Below, in pieces: positions 1 through 4,906 of a stretch of DNA of 5,502 bases (positions within the stretch are counted from its first letter, which is position 1; each line of letters begins with the position of its first letter). Source of the stretch: Candidatus Eiseniibacteriota bacterium (lineage in GTDB: Bacteria; JAFGKV01); NCBI GenBank assembly GCA_025453925.1, contig JALOPK010000243.1, positions 1 through 5,502 on the forward strand, read 5' to 3'. The notes beneath the pieces are model-generated. The model saw only the letters and a program-made list of their open reading frames with translations, ran no database searches and was not told where the DNA came from. The position numbers were made by a program, and so were the translations under genes.

Positions 1-83
1 GGAGGGAACAGCGAGTACTTGATGGGCCTGAAGTAGGGACTTCGGGCTTCAGTCAACGCAGGGAGGATGAGTCTGACCTTCAT
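1..83 (-). CDS. B12-binding radical SAM protein, N-terminal fragment (runs off left edge)
   Basis: Reading the complement from an ATG at 83-81 gives 27 uninterrupted codons to the window edge. The protein begins MKVRLILPALTEA and continues with SPYFRPIKYSLFP. An N-terminal MKV-x-LILPALTEA strand followed by PIKYSLFPPLG is what I know from cobalamin-binding-domain radical SAM proteins: the first strand of a Rossmann-like B12 domain, with the [4Fe-4S] CxxxCxxC domain normally much further downstream and outside this window. The start is well supported by AAGGAG (93-88, complement) four bases before the ATG. The leader upstream matches the leader of the membrane-protein gene at 1463, including an operator-like palindrome at 114-130. 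The specific reaction cannot be told from 27 residues. The family call rests on N-terminal resemblance only, since the iron-sulfur motif is not visible. Confidence 0.72.
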   Translation of the reverse strand, partial: MKVRLILPALTEARSPYFRPIKYSLFP

Positions 84-113
84 GGTGCTCCTTCATTGAG
101 TGATTCACAGAGT

Positions 114-130
114 GCTTTGGAATGCAGAGT
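114..130 (-). promoter_or_regulatory. Operator-like palindrome upstream of radical SAM gene (site 1)
   Basis: On the minus strand the site reads ACTCTG-CATTC-CAAAGC, a degenerate form of ACTTTG-N5-CAAAGT. Each 6-bp arm matches that ideal at 5 of 6 positions. A further ACTCTG half-site follows directly at 113-108. The site ends 30 bp before the ATG at 83 and is followed by CTCAATG (100-94) and AAGGAG. A second site with the same design lies before the membrane-protein/regulator operon (1484-1500). The two share 15 of 20 bases when aligned with the adjoining AAA. The natural candidate for the binding protein is the winged-helix regulator at 451-831. That is inferred from position, not shown. 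Confidence 0.55.
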
Positions 131-219
131 AAATGAGCAAAAAGGGGGACCCGTACTCGCGAAACGAGCGGGAGTCGTGCGGAGTGCGGTGAGAGGAGCA
201 CGGAGTTGAAGCGCCAACT

Positions 220-272
220 TGTAGCCACGCCGCTCTGCGGCGTGCGGCCCGGCGCAGAGCGCCGGGGCTACA
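220..272. repeat. Cloverleaf-like palindromic element bounded by GTAGCC/GGCTAC
   Basis: An outer 7-bp inverted repeat, TGTAGCC (220-226) and GGCTACA (266-272), encloses two perfect 7-bp hairpins. The first is ACGCCGC-TCT-GCGGCGT (227-243) and the second is CCGGCGC-AGA-GCGCCGG (249-265), with only GCGGC (244-248) unpaired between them. The arms can also refold into one long hairpin, because GCTCTGCG (232-239) is complementary to CGCAGAGC (253-260). The element is therefore nearly self-complementary overall and could extrude on either strand. Its compactness and intergenic position suggest a dispersed REP-like or miniature mobile element rather than a terminator. A second copy within this window was not seen. 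Confidence 0.7.
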
Positions 273-377
273 GCCTGAGCCCTCCCCCCGCGATTCAGTC
301 GACCGCATACTCTCAAGCGGGTAAGGACTCCGGGCACCGACGCATCCGGCATGGCGCCCTGTCGTCCTTGCGGCCTT

Positions 378-417
378 GATCCTTTGGATCTCGGATTTCG
401 TGCTTCGAGTTTCGTGC
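378..417. repeat. Short inverted repeat plus degenerate 14-bp tandem repeat
   Basis: GATCC-TTT-GGATC (378-390) is a 5-bp-arm inverted repeat. It runs straight into two adjacent 14-mers, CTCGGATTTCGTGC (390-403) and TTCGAGTTTCGTGC (404-417), that match at 11 of 14 positions. The block starts about 33 bp downstream of the regulator stop codon. It looks like non-coding intergenic repeat debris. It has no run of T on the minus strand, so it is not a convincing terminator. Confidence 0.4.
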
Positions 418-450
418 GTGTGGCGGTATTCAGCGTCCGCTCCGCAGACA

Positions 451-831
451 TCACGCCTTCGCAAGCCCCAACCCTTCCGCCGCCGGCGCATCCGCCTTTG
501 CCATCCGGGTGCCGAGTCGACGGGCGGCATCGTGGAGTACCGCCTCCAGCACCCCCAGATACTCCAGGAACCGCTCCCGACCTTCCGACGACAGGGTGAT
601 GGTGGTGCGCGGGTAGTTTCCGACGAAGCGCTTGTCGATCTCGACGATCCCCTCTTGAGCCAGGCTTCTGACGTGACGGTTGAGGTTGCCGTCGGTGAGG
701 CTGCAGCGGTCGCGCAACTCGGGAAACGGCATGCCGTGCGGCGCATCCAGCAGGTTGGTCACGATGGCCAGGCGCGGCGGCGAATGAAAGATGCGTTCAA
801 GCAATTCGAAGGGGACATCCCGTTGGGTCAT
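451..831 (-). CDS. Winged-helix DNA-binding transcriptional regulator (MarR/ArsR-like, 126 aa)
   Basis: A small cytoplasmic one-domain regulator. Residues 8-30 form the first helices (ELLERIFHSPPRLAIVTNLL). Residues 36-60 are the helix-turn-helix, with recognition helix TDGNLNRHVRSLAQEG (46-61). Residues 62-82 form the beta-wing, with IVEIDKRFVGN and RTTITLS. A C-terminal helix (83-105, EGRERFLEYLGVLEAVLHD) would serve dimerisation. This is the layout of stand-alone winged-helix proteins often filed as 'winged helix DNA-binding domain' regulators; no sensor domain or metal-binding cysteine cluster is visible. The ATG at 831 overlaps the TGA of the upstream membrane-protein gene as ATGA. It is preceded by AAGGA six bases away, which fixes the start and indicates translational coupling. 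I infer that it binds the palindromes at 1484-1500 and 114-130. Confidence 0.88.
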   Translation of the reverse strand: MTQRDVPFELLERIFHSPPRLAIVTNLLDAPHGMPFPELRDRCSLTDGNLNRHVRSLAQEGIVEIDKRFVGNYPRTTITLSSEGRERFLEYLGVLEAVLHDAARRLGTRMAKADAPAAEGLGLAKA

Positions 832-1463
832 GATCGGTCCTTCCCTGCGATGAAACCCTGGATCGAATCGTTGGGCATTCGGTTGCGGTGGAAGATGAAC
901 CCGCCCGCCACCTCACCCACGCAGAACACGATGCCCATGGGCCATGGGTTGGTGAAGGTGAGGCCTGGCGTGACGAACCACATCACCCCGCAGGAGACGT
1001 AGTACAGCCCCACCAGCCAGATTGCCCTGGGCAGCACTCGGCGCGAGGCGAGATTCGTGAGGCCGTACAGACACATCCAGGTGCCTGGCAAGAGGTCAAC
1101 CACACCGTCACGCACCAACACGAAAGACAGGATGGCACCGACCGCCAAGGCAGGCAGCGCATCAACCGTGGGCATGAGTCGCCGCACATCCCGTCGAGGT
1201 CCCGACGTGGTGATGAACCACACGATGAGGGCCGCGTAGTTGGCCACCACGGCCACGAGCAGCACCAGCCCCCACCCGACCAGATGCGCCTGAACGGTAA
1301 GTGGGAATCCCGGCCGGCTCATGACGGCGGCCGCCGCCAGCGCAACCGTCCCCGCCACGGCCCTGACGCGGCCCGAATACCCGGTGAACATCTGGGAATC
1401 CAGCACCCTGAGCTTCAGTTCCCGCACCTGCCGCAGGGCATCATGCACATGCGCAGCAATCAC
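828..1463 (-). CDS. Six-segment membrane protein of unknown function, partner of winged-helix regulator
   Basis: I chose the GTG at 1463 (211 aa). It has GGAGG (1472-1468) four bases upstream, and the leader aligns with that of the radical SAM gene at 83. The same frame stays open to an ATG at 1700, but that start has no ribosome binding site and its extra 79 residues look like translated spacer. Residues 1-33 form a charged helix (HDALRQVRELKLRVLD) ending in SQMFTGYSGR. About six hydrophobic segments follow at roughly 34-49, 60-84, 101-118, 125-138, 146-165 and 174-191, with basic loops (GPRRDVRR, ASRRVLPR) and a basic tail. No catalytic motif is visible. The layout recalls small inner-membrane proteins that begin with an amphipathic helix and sit next to a winged-helix regulator. 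A role in sensing or in controlling the regulator is possible but unproven. Confidence 0.8.
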   Translation of the reverse strand: MIAAHVHDALRQVRELKLRVLDSQMFTGYSGRVRAVAGTVALAAAAVMSRPGFPLTVQAHLVGWGLVLLVAVVANYAALIVWFITTSGPRRDVRRLMPTVDALPALAVGAILSFVLVRDGVVDLLPGTWMCLYGLTNLASRRVLPRAIWLVGLYYVSCGVMWFVTPGLTFTNPWPMGIVFCVGEVAGGFIFHRNRMPNDSIQGFIAGKDRS

Positions 1464-1483
1464 ACTGCCTCCATTGAGAGAGC

Positions 1484-1500
1484 ACTCTGCGATGCAAAGT
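1484..1500 (-). promoter_or_regulatory. Operator-like palindrome upstream of membrane-protein/regulator operon (site 2)
   Basis: The minus strand reads ACTTTG-CATCG-CAGAGT, with 5 of 6 arm positions symmetric. It ends 20 bp before the GTG at 1463. It is followed by CTCAATG (1478-1472), which overlaps the GGAGG ribosome binding site, and is preceded by TTTT. A weak promoter candidate overlaps it: TTGCGC, 17 bp, then TACTTT, each matching consensus at only 3 of 6. Binding here would block transcription start, which fits autorepression by the winged-helix protein encoded second in this operon. The same layout is found at 114-130. Confidence 0.58.
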
Positions 1501-1562
1501 AAAAGGCCATGAGTCGCCGCGCAAGGGATTCCGCCTATCTCCTCCCGTACACCGTGCTCATG

Positions 1563-1721: not shown

Positions 1722-3260
1722 CTACCGGTTTTCCGGAGGGTGCTCAGGTGCTTCCGGCAGGTACATCCATAGCGGGCGCACACGCCATCCGGTACGCGGC
1801 CAGAACACGGTCGAGTCTCGAAACGCAGGAACCCTCCTCGGGTAGTATGCGCGAACCTCGTCCATGAAGAACCAATCATCGCGATCAAGCACGATGGCGG
1901 CGAATCGTCCTGCCGCGATGGCGTGCTCGTATTCCCGGCGCAACGCCGCTCCGGCGCCATCGGGATCGCAGCCGAGCACGTCGGACACCGCCATTCGGTG
2001 CGCAGCCGGCGCGCTGCCCGCCAACGACGGCAGGTACCCGTGGAAGGGCATGAGAATCTCCCCGGAGACCGAAGAAAGCCGGGACAGAAGCCATTGACCC
2101 TCCTGGCGATCGCGATCCGTGGGGATCTCCGCGCGGGGGTCGTAGGCGAGCATGCCCAGTTGGACGAGGACGAGTACGGCTGCAACGGTCGAGAGGAGCT
2201 GGCGTATACGTGGAGTCCCCCCTTCCCAACTCATCATCTCATGAACGCACAGCCCCGCAACTATGGCGACGATCACGTACGTCGGCATCAGGACGTTGTC
2301 ATACCCGCCGTACTGCATTCGCGGCAGCCACGATCCGGCAACCATTCCGATTGTGGCCCCGAGGTAGAGCCATACTGCCCTGTTCCGTGCCGCCATTCCG
2401 CGCAGCAGCCACACGGTCCCAAGGACCGAGGCAATGCCGAACTGGCGGAGGAGATCCCTCGTCCAGAACGCACTCACCTCCGAGTCGAGTATCCTCACCG
2501 AAAACCGCCGGGGAAGCTCGAACGCGTAGTAGCCGTACCATCCGTGGCTCATGAAGTGCATGAGCCCATGGCTTGCCGTCATCCCTGCCAGCACCAGGAG
2601 GCTGAAGGTCAGGCCTTTGCGCCAACCCGTGACAAGCGCCGCGATCGCCAGCGGCACCGCGACGGCGAACGCGGTCTGTTTCGTGAGGCTGGCGAGCACC
2701 AGCAGGGCGGCGGCCCACGCAGCGCTCCTGCATGACGTGCCGAATCTGAGCACGTAGAACGCCCCGAGCGAAAGGGCAAGGAACAGCGTATCGCCTCTTC
2801 CGATATCGAACCACGCGCCGCTCGCGCGGTAGGTGGCCGCGAACAGACCGGTCGACACGATGGCAGCGCACCAACTCCGCGTCTCGCGCCGCACCATGGC
2901 GAAGGTGAGCGAGAGGCATACCAGCGACGAGAGGATTGCCGTGAGACGAGTTGCGAGGAATCCCACGCCAGTGAGACGGGCGACGACAGCCGACACCCAA
3001 TAGAAAAGCGGTGGGTACGTGGCCGGCACGAACGTGGGCGACGGAGCGATGTACAGCGGCTGGCCCTGAAGAACTCGCGCAACGTGGTCGACCATGCCCC
3101 CCTCCATCCATTCAAGCTCGAACGGATAGGGGAATCGGCTCGCGGCGACCGCGAGACATGCACCGATCGCCACGAGCCCAGTAGAGCACGCCGCAAACAT
3201 GAGCGCACGAACAGCTATTCGGGAGCATGAAGATAGCTTCTGGGGTATGAATGCAGTCAT
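1722..3260 (-). CDS. GT-C family glycosyltransferase (PMT/ArnT-like polytopic membrane enzyme, 512 aa)
   Basis: A polytopic inner-membrane enzyme expected to move a sugar from a polyprenyl-phosphate donor to an acceptor on the outer face. A first membrane segment (about 16-41) leads into the extracytoplasmic loop YPFELEWMEGGMVDH. Its acidic residues E48, E50 and E53 occupy the place of the catalytic acid in GT-C enzymes. YPP (82-84) and FDIGRGD (151-157) are further loop motifs typical of GT39/GT83-like proteins. Hydrophobic segments continue to about residue 375, with a basic loop near TKQT (193-196). A soluble C-terminal region (about 376-512) is rich in aromatic residues and prolines. The ATG at 3260 overlaps the upstream TGA as TGATG, with GGGAG (3269-3265) four bases ahead, so the start is firm and coupled to the preceding glycosyltransferase. 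The sugar and acceptor cannot be predicted. Confidence 0.85.
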   Translation of the reverse strand: MTAFIPQKLSSCSRIAVRALMFAACSTGLVAIGACLAVAASRFPYPFELEWMEGGMVDHVARVLQGQPLYIAPSPTFVPATYPPLFYWVSAVVARLTGVGFLATRLTAILSSLVCLSLTFAMVRRETRSWCAAIVSTGLFAATYRASGAWFDIGRGDTLFLALSLGAFYVLRFGTSCRSAAWAAALLVLASLTKQTAFAVAVPLAIAALVTGWRKGLTFSLLVLAGMTASHGLMHFMSHGWYGYYAFELPRRFSVRILDSEVSAFWTRDLLRQFGIASVLGTVWLLRGMAARNRAVWLYLGATIGMVAGSWLPRMQYGGYDNVLMPTYVIVAIVAGLCVHEMMSWEGGTPRIRQLLSTVAAVLVLVQLGMLAYDPRAEIPTDRDRQEGQWLLSRLSSVSGEILMPFHGYLPSLAGSAPAAHRMAVSDVLGCDPDGAGAALRREYEHAIAAGRFAAIVLDRDDWFFMDEVRAYYPRRVPAFRDSTVFWPRTGWRVRPLWMYLPEAPEHPPENR

Positions 3261-4756
3261 CAGACTCCCGGAACGGCCGCAGGATCGACGAGTCTGAACA
3301 CGTCGACGCCCGAGTACCTCGGACTGCTGAAGCTCATCTCGAATCGGTACGCCTCATCGAACCAGGGAGCCTCCAGGAGCAGACGTTCATTCCCCCAGAG
3401 CTCCCGGTGGACGATCAGGTAGTCCGGCCTGAATCGACGGAGGGCGTAGGTGCCATCGCCCAACGCCATTGTGTGATGCCCAACATCCGGGGTCACCAAC
3501 CCCCATAGATCAATGATCCGGTGTTCCGATGCATACCCCACTGCCCCCACCTCGAAGGCCGCGATGGTCGCCTCCTGCGGAGAATGGGCCTCGATCCACT
3601 GGGCGGCTTCCACGTAGACCGGGTGCCGTGGGTACGGCAGCCAACGGTGGAACGCCTGTTCGCATTGGATGAACGCGACGAAGGCAGTGACCACTCCTGC
3701 TCCCGCGAGGAGCGCGCCGACCGGTCGCCTGCGGCCGGCCAGATCGGCGGTGCCGAGGCATGCCAGCATCACCAGCACGGGTGAGACGACGGAGTAGTAC
3801 CAGATGTAGACGTGCGGCACGTTGAGGATGGCGTATGCGCCCAGGTAGCAGAGCGCCCAGACGACCAGCGCGCCGCAGACTGTGAGCCGGAGACGGATGA
3901 TCCTGAGGAGCCCGATGGCCGCCAAGGGAGCGATGACCATCACCCATCGCGACTCGCCGAAGTATCGCATCGCGTAGAATGCGATTCCCTCAAGGAAGTC
4001 GGAGCCCCACACGTGCGCCTGCAGGCGCTTGATCGCCAACGTCTGCGGAATCGGCGTGCCGTAGTATGCCCATGCGAACATACCCCAGGCCCCCGCCAGG
4101 GTACCAAGGCCGATGACTGCGTGCACGGGAAGGCGGCGATTGCGCACTGTCCAGACCGCCAGGTACACAGCCGCCGCTACCACCGCGTCGCCGCGGCAGA
4201 CAATGGCACAACCAAGCAGGACACCGGCAATGACCTGTTTGGGGGAATCCAGAAGCAGAAACGCGCCGAAGATCAGCGAGACGTGCAAGAAGGTCTCCGA
4301 ACCGAACCCGCCGGTGATGAGTAGCGGATCGAGGACCGCCAACGCTCCGGCGACCAGCCACGCGAGACTCCGGTGTTCTCTGCGGGAAGCACCCCCGACC
4401 AATCGTCCCACGAGGACGCCGACAACGCCAAGAGACAGGCAGGAGACGAGCTTGCCCCAGAACGCCGGATCCCGCCCCAGGAGCGTCAGCCCGCCGAGTA
4501 TGAGCGCAAACAGTGGCGAAGTGGTACCGAGGACTCTCTCGCCCGGGTTGTACACCAGGCTGTTTCCCGTGGCCAGATTCCGGGCGTATCTGTAGGTGAT
4601 GTACGGATCGTCATTGTCGAACTGCCATAGCCGCAGCCCGACGAGGATGCCGAGCAGCAGGGGGGCACTGAGCGCCGGAAGCCAGCGTCGTTGACCGCAG
4701 CAATCAGAACGGCCAGGCACGCTTCCATTCAAAGACAGGTTCGTTCTTCTCTTCAC
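3260..4756 (-). CDS. GT-C family glycosyltransferase with DDxYITYRYA motif (AftB-like, about 498 aa)
   Basis: A polytopic membrane enzyme, numbered here from a GTG at 4756. After the first membrane segment (26-44) comes the loop DNDDPYITYRYARNLATGN. Its paired aspartates D49/D50 are the expected catalytic site of GT-C enzymes, followed by YNPGERVLGTTSPL (69-82). This loop is characteristic of a family that includes mycobacterial arabinofuranosyltransferase-like proteins, though that does not prove arabinose as substrate. About ten hydrophobic segments follow. The soluble C-terminal domain (about 366-498) contains IIDLWGLVTPD and RPDYLIVHRE, as is usual in these enzymes. The start is uncertain: a GTG at 4831 and another at 4720 are in frame, and none has a good ribosome binding site. 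I prefer 4756 because it gives a normal short cytoplasmic N-terminus. The stop overlaps the next glycosyltransferase start as TGATG. Confidence 0.83.
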   Translation of the reverse strand: MKRRTNLSLNGSVPGRSDCCGQRRWLPALSAPLLLGILVGLRLWQFDNDDPYITYRYARNLATGNSLVYNPGERVLGTTSPLFALILGGLTLLGRDPAFWGKLVSCLSLGVVGVLVGRLVGGASRREHRSLAWLVAGALAVLDPLLITGGFGSETFLHVSLIFGAFLLLDSPKQVIAGVLLGCAIVCRGDAVVAAAVYLAVWTVRNRRLPVHAVIGLGTLAGAWGMFAWAYYGTPIPQTLAIKRLQAHVWGSDFLEGIAFYAMRYFGESRWVMVIAPLAAIGLLRIIRLRLTVCGALVVWALCYLGAYAILNVPHVYIWYYSVVSPVLVMLACLGTADLAGRRRPVGALLAGAGVVTAFVAFIQCEQAFHRWLPYPRHPVYVEAAQWIEAHSPQEATIAAFEVGAVGYASEHRIIDLWGLVTPDVGHHTMALGDGTYALRRFRPDYLIVHRELWGNERLLLEAPWFDEAYRFEMSFSSPRYSGVDVFRLVDPAAVPGV

Positions 4757-4906
4757 CTCAAGCTTCAGGTTGGGAGACCAGGCAGGGCATCCAAGGGTTG
4801 CCTTCGGTTGGTGGCGGATGAGTCTCGGCACAATCGCCGGTTGATCGCGGAATCCTCATCCCCGATGTTCTGTCTTGCCCATCAAGCCGCCGATGCGACC
4901 TTGCGG

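Follow-up and report, generated by a model that had tools for sequence, protein, structure and literature searches.

Two palindromes beside an HTH_34 regulator gene as most likely operators of a predicted local switch found in at least nine bacterial phyla

Organization of the locus

The window, a stretch of 5,502 nucleotides from a member of Candidatus Eiseniibacteriota, is an entire contig (C267) of a metagenome genome of 3.9 Mb that is 82% complete. On its minus strand lie, in order, a palindrome (operator 2), genes for a membrane protein and a winged-helix regulator, about 320 bp of intergenic DNA, a second palindrome (operator 1) and the start of a radical SAM gene. The features are as follows, the operator names being those of the proposed function.

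1496-1524, minus strand: tentative operon promoter, TTGCGC-17 bp-TACTTT, its -10 overlapping operator 2; proposed from sequence and from the geometry of nine homologous loci
1484-1500, minus strand: operator 2, ACTTTGCATCGCAGAGT, before the membrane-protein/regulator operon; kept in the relative L017 as ACTCTGTTTCGCAAAGT
828-1463, minus strand: six-helix membrane protein, 211 aa, GTG start; 4-bp overlap with the regulator start
451-831, minus strand: winged-helix regulator, 126 aa, proposed repressor; Pfam HTH_34 (PF13601), E 8.8e-17
114-130, minus strand: operator 1, ACTCTGCATTCCAAAGC, before the B12 radical SAM gene; kept in L017 as ACTCTGAATTCCAAAGT
108-113, minus strand: third half-site ACTCTG, abutting operator 1; homologous sites have a partial third ACTTTG after the palindrome
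3-83, minus strand: B12-binding radical SAM gene, first 27 codons, then contig end; full-length ortholog at L017:4653-6086

The positions that the initial annotation gave for the two palindromes were confirmed in the sequence, as was their identity at 15 of 20 bases (plus strand, adjoining AAA included). Both had been placed 20-30 bp before a start codon, and the measured distances are 30 bp from the end of operator 1 to an ATG (81-83, MKVRLILPALTEARSPYFRPIKYSLFP) and 20 bp from the end of operator 2 to the GTG of the membrane protein gene (1461-1463). This GTG start is the same in L017, the nearest relative in the collection (titled Candidatus Fermentibacteria, with a regulator 84% identical to that of the window), and many homologs of the membrane protein start with MIAxHIHDAL. 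Comparison with L017 shows that the intergenic DNA ahead of operator 1 is largely unalignable, that the operator 1 leader is 94% identical over a block of 100 columns including the gene start, and that the half-sites of operator 2 are kept. A CTCAATG box that had been described as common to both leaders is missing at site 2 of L017; it was rejected as a functional element and is regarded as a coincidence.

Between the regulator gene and operator 1 (220-272) there is an inverted repeat with 26-nt arms that are 85% complementary and 1 nt apart, not seen in the aligned region of L017. Upstream of the operon on the same strand (1722-4831) are two large multi-spanning membrane proteins that match the PMT_2 and, just below cut-off, GT87 glycosyltransferase families.

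The winged-helix regulator and its membrane partner

In profile searches, the regulator matched HTH_34 with 61.5 bits against a gathering cut-off of 27, and fell below the curated cut-off of HTH_metalloreg (ArsR/SmtB; 18.4 bits versus 55) and the gathering cut-off of MarR_2 (18.5 bits versus 27). The best PDB fold match to its AlphaFold model (pLDDT 87) is 1ub9, with a TM-score of 0.86 on the target, and the winged-helix fold is thus confirmed at the level of a predicted structure. PH1061, the protein of PDB 1ub9, resembles the regulator in sequence family, fold and size; the present cluster differs from what is described for this solved HTH_34 member in having a conserved operator and a membrane gene at a fixed place upstream. 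Neither an operator, membrane partner or regulon of HTH_34 proteins nor a description of the palindrome was found in the literature searched, a scope outside which most subscription journals fell. All 30 homologs in an alignment share the putative recognition motif TDGNLNRH without change, as would be expected with a single conserved operator; in some others the motif reads TDGNLSRH and the site is the same.

Local autorepressors of the MarR/ArsR type, such as MepR and MexR, combine a winged helix and autoregulation with a small local regulon and a palindrome that lies over promoter elements. The system described here is like them in its winged-helix fold (by fold matches), in the position of the site, in its local regulon and in having a palindrome over the promoter, but its regulator scores below the curated cut-offs of those families and is apparently co-transcribed with a six-helix membrane protein.

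A membrane protein gene or similar open reading frame directly precedes the regulator gene in about 74 of 80 homologous loci (1-2 of these probably being mis-called frames), often overlapping it, so that the partnership appears to be conserved. The model of the 211-aa protein of the window (pLDDT 89) has an N-terminal helix followed by a helical membrane bundle. No Pfam family was found for it in a search of 48 homologs, no similar solved structure in a fold search, and no sensor domain of a known type in the Pfam profile and fold searches; assignment to a known fold or Pfam family was therefore rejected. A role as a sensor is plausible for this protein.

Conservation of the palindromes in homologous loci

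Eighty loci from other genomes, gathered solely by similarity to the regulator protein, were scanned for the palindrome. Exact copies were found 40 times upstream of the membrane gene, 10 times just after the regulator gene and 4 times elsewhere, whereas 119 permuted control palindromes averaged 0, 0 and 0.03 at these places; at the upstream and downstream positions there were thus 50 exact matches to the real palindrome and none to any of the 119 controls. With up to 2 mismatches allowed, an upstream site is present in 65 of the 75 loci with enough sequence (approximately 87%); ten loci with room for one have no upstream site within this limit. At the same stringency, 31 of 80 loci have a downstream site between the regulator gene and the next gene, most of them loci in which these two genes do not overlap, and the site usually lies in a gap of 30-130 bp. 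Its typical absence where the next gene overlaps fits service to a separate promoter, and its presence in 31 loci supports control of the next gene. At a near-fixed distance, 15 to 5 bases before the downstream sites of many homologous loci, there is a T-tract, TTTTTTTGnC. It was considered as part of a hairpin terminator and rejected, with hairpin energies no better than those of shuffled sequences (mean z -0.34; 5 of 22 below -1.5).

The initial annotation had held a chance match of the two leaders to be unlikely, and the recurrence of the palindrome at both of these positions in homologous loci from other phyla excludes chance. By record titles, the loci belong to Fermentibacteria, Calditrichota, Verrucomicrobia/Kiritimatiellae, Lentisphaerae, Planctomycetota, Acidobacteria, Eremiobacterota, Neomarinimicrobiota and Alphaproteobacteria, so that the predicted switch appears to be common to at least nine bacterial phyla.

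Distribution of the motif in the host and other genomes

The possibility that the motif is scattered through the genome, or that the leaders are parts of a dispersed repeat, was raised in the initial annotation and addressed by pattern scans of the host genome (G000). The pattern ACTYTG-N5-CARAGY occurs in three places, two of them on this contig. ACTTTG-N5-CAAAGT with up to 2 mismatches, the consensus from which the two sites of the window differ by 1 and 2 mismatches, occurs in 15 places, whereas the reversed control occurs in 34, and the host genome as a whole is thus not enriched in the motif. The other matches that were checked lie inside long open frames (a locus designated L016 being the least clear), and only the two sites of the window are in promoter position within the 3.9 Mb. 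The motif is therefore not scattered, the host genome gives no support for a repeat, and a dispersed repeat was rejected for this genome.

Each of 34 regulator-bearing genomes outside the genus Cerasicoccus has 1-3 copies of the exact motif, and 35 of the 39 listed places are within 1.5 kb of a regulator gene; because the presence of exact sites was one of the reasons for choosing these genomes, what is informative is how seldom the motif occurs elsewhere in them. As a genome-level predictor of the regulator the exact motif is weakly informative, being present in 10 of 28 regulator-positive genomes and 26 of 165 others.

These distributions bear on whether the palindromes might be sites of another, global regulator, or copies of a dispersed repeat, that coincide with the operon by accident. 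Three Cerasicoccus genomes with 27-123 dispersed copies (described below) speak for such an explanation, but the host and the 34 other regulator-bearing genomes have few copies, concentrated at the regulator locus, and record titles place the association in at least nine phyla; we consider this explanation very improbable. Most likely, the two 17-base palindromes are bound by the winged-helix protein whose gene lies between them.

Site anatomy, promoter overlap and predicted regulation

The sequence logo of homologous sites is ACTTTG-Y-N-W-T-R-CAAAGT, symmetric, with the partial third half-site directly after. In loci of the Kiritimatiellae/Lentisphaerae type, the palindrome supplies the -35 element (TTGCAA), 17 bp ahead of a -10-like hexamer. 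In Acidobacteria, Planctomycetes and Alphaproteobacteria, TTGACA stands 16-18 bp before TACTTT and the palindrome covers the -10 element; this spacing of 16, 17 or 18 bp is found in all nine loci with a good TTGACA. In Eremiobacterota, the site ends a few bases before the start codon. The candidate promoter of the window resembles the -10-covering class, with a weak -35 element (3 of 6 bases). Across the family, then, the operon has its own operator over its own predicted promoter, tentatively so in the window.

A different interpretation is that the palindromes act as RNA hairpins, in the manner of an attenuator or of a structured 5' UTR. An inverted repeat in a leader may function as RNA, and the palindrome itself is the sole support for this here. 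The half-sites are conserved as sequence and not through compensatory change, in each of the two sites of the window some positions of the two halves do not pair, and many sites overlap promoter elements and would not be fully transcribed, all of which makes an RNA element extremely improbable.

We infer instead that the HTH_34 protein binds ACTTTG-N5-CAAAGT (ACTYTG-N5-CARAGY in the window) directly, presumably as a dimer through the TDGNLNRH helix. Bound there, it would cover the -35 or -10 element and repress the membrane-protein/regulator operon, and through operator 1 it would also repress the adjacent B12 radical SAM gene. Release from repression would most likely depend on a signal that the co-transcribed six-helix membrane protein provides or passes on. 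This reading, in which the regulator represses both its own operon and the radical SAM gene and the membrane protein provides the signal, is considered probable with good confidence. Autorepression is the likeliest mode because, wherever a promoter can be read, its -35 or its -10 element lies under the site. The local regulon proposed in the initial annotation, with predicted autorepression and co-control of the radical SAM gene, is thus largely supported by the pairing of regulator and operator and by the second site.

In an unlikely variant, the palindromes are indeed operators of the winged-helix protein, but this protein would activate the neighbouring gene or be a dual regulator of it. 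Some loci have the site upstream of or over the -35 element, a position used by some activators, and the T-rich element that precedes many downstream sites is not a hairpin terminator, so that an unusual kind of promoter may be present there. Repression, on the other hand, is fitted by the at least nine loci in which the site lies over the -10 element of a good TTGACA promoter, and by the Eremiobacterota sites so close to the start codon.

Predicted target genes

The classes of genes that follow the regulator gene encode a cis-prenyltransferase (UppS family), B12 radical SAM proteins (sometimes directly after UppS), HMG-CoA synthase, IspH, CreD, a cytochrome P450 with a short-chain dehydrogenase, and two unannotated membrane families. 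By gene names, the predicted switch would usually be located beside genes of lipid, isoprenoid or cell-envelope enzymes. The radical SAM ortholog of L017, which is full-length where the window has 27 codons only, contains Radical_SAM and B12-binding domains. It scores below the NCBIfam equivalog cut-offs of the hopanoid enzymes HpnR and HpnJ (76 bits versus 650 and 578) and is only a distant relative of these proteins. Identification as a tetraether synthase was rejected, the only PDB match being the AprD4-type structure 6fd2.

CreD (PF06123) is the neighbour in five homologous loci (L021, L048, L054, L081 and L086). As a predicted regulated neighbour it recalls the CreBC/CreD envelope system, but control would come here from a one-component winged-helix protein encoded at the locus and not from a two-component pair. 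In one genome (G192, L127:2363-2560), a copy of the operator is located before a creD gene away from the regulator locus, with an apparent decayed membrane-protein start between the two.

The analysis gives a little-studied regulator family a candidate operator, a conserved membrane partner and a list of predicted targets, including the P450. These targets suggest that, in many phyla that have received little study, the family controls isoprenoid, lipid or envelope functions. Cultured relatives, for example Cerasicoccus, Novosphingobium and Methylobacterium, would allow a direct test of the pairing.

Expansion of the palindrome in Cerasicoccus

Three Cerasicoccus genomes (G224, G228 and G229; loci L024, L026, L035, L139-L158 and L177-L216) contain 123, 106 and 27 exact copies of the palindrome, compared with 0-1 in 51 other genomes of the same order. 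In 800 kb of C. maritimus DNA not chosen around sites, CTTTG-N5-CAAAG occurs 63 times, versus 3-4 times with spacers of 4 or 6 and 0-7 times for other palindromes. The copies are clumped, and 41 of 49 exact sites are inside open reading frames, in stretches that were chosen around sites. The sites are kept at orthologous positions while their centres drift: of the C. frondis sites, 8 were alignable to C. maritimus DNA that had not been selected, and all 8 are kept, versus 15% of background windows (P approximately 3e-7). The Cerasicoccus genomes carry the same regulator family, C. frondis having one copy. It is possible, though on balance rather doubtful, that the code of winged helix and palindrome has become a genome-scale DNA-marking or large-regulon system in this genus, a once-local repressor having turned into a dispersed chromosome binder. 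If the same protein is the cause of the expansion, this would be a case of a local repressor becoming a chromosome-wide DNA binder.

A genome from Verrucomicrobiia (G230, which includes L038 and L159-L166) has eight exact copies, possibly a milder expansion of the same kind, and the wing sequence of its regulator resembles that of Cerasicoccus. In C. maritimus (G228) there is also a short repeat of approximately 60-90 bp with 75-93% identity, found at L140:2319-2464 and in dozens of places.
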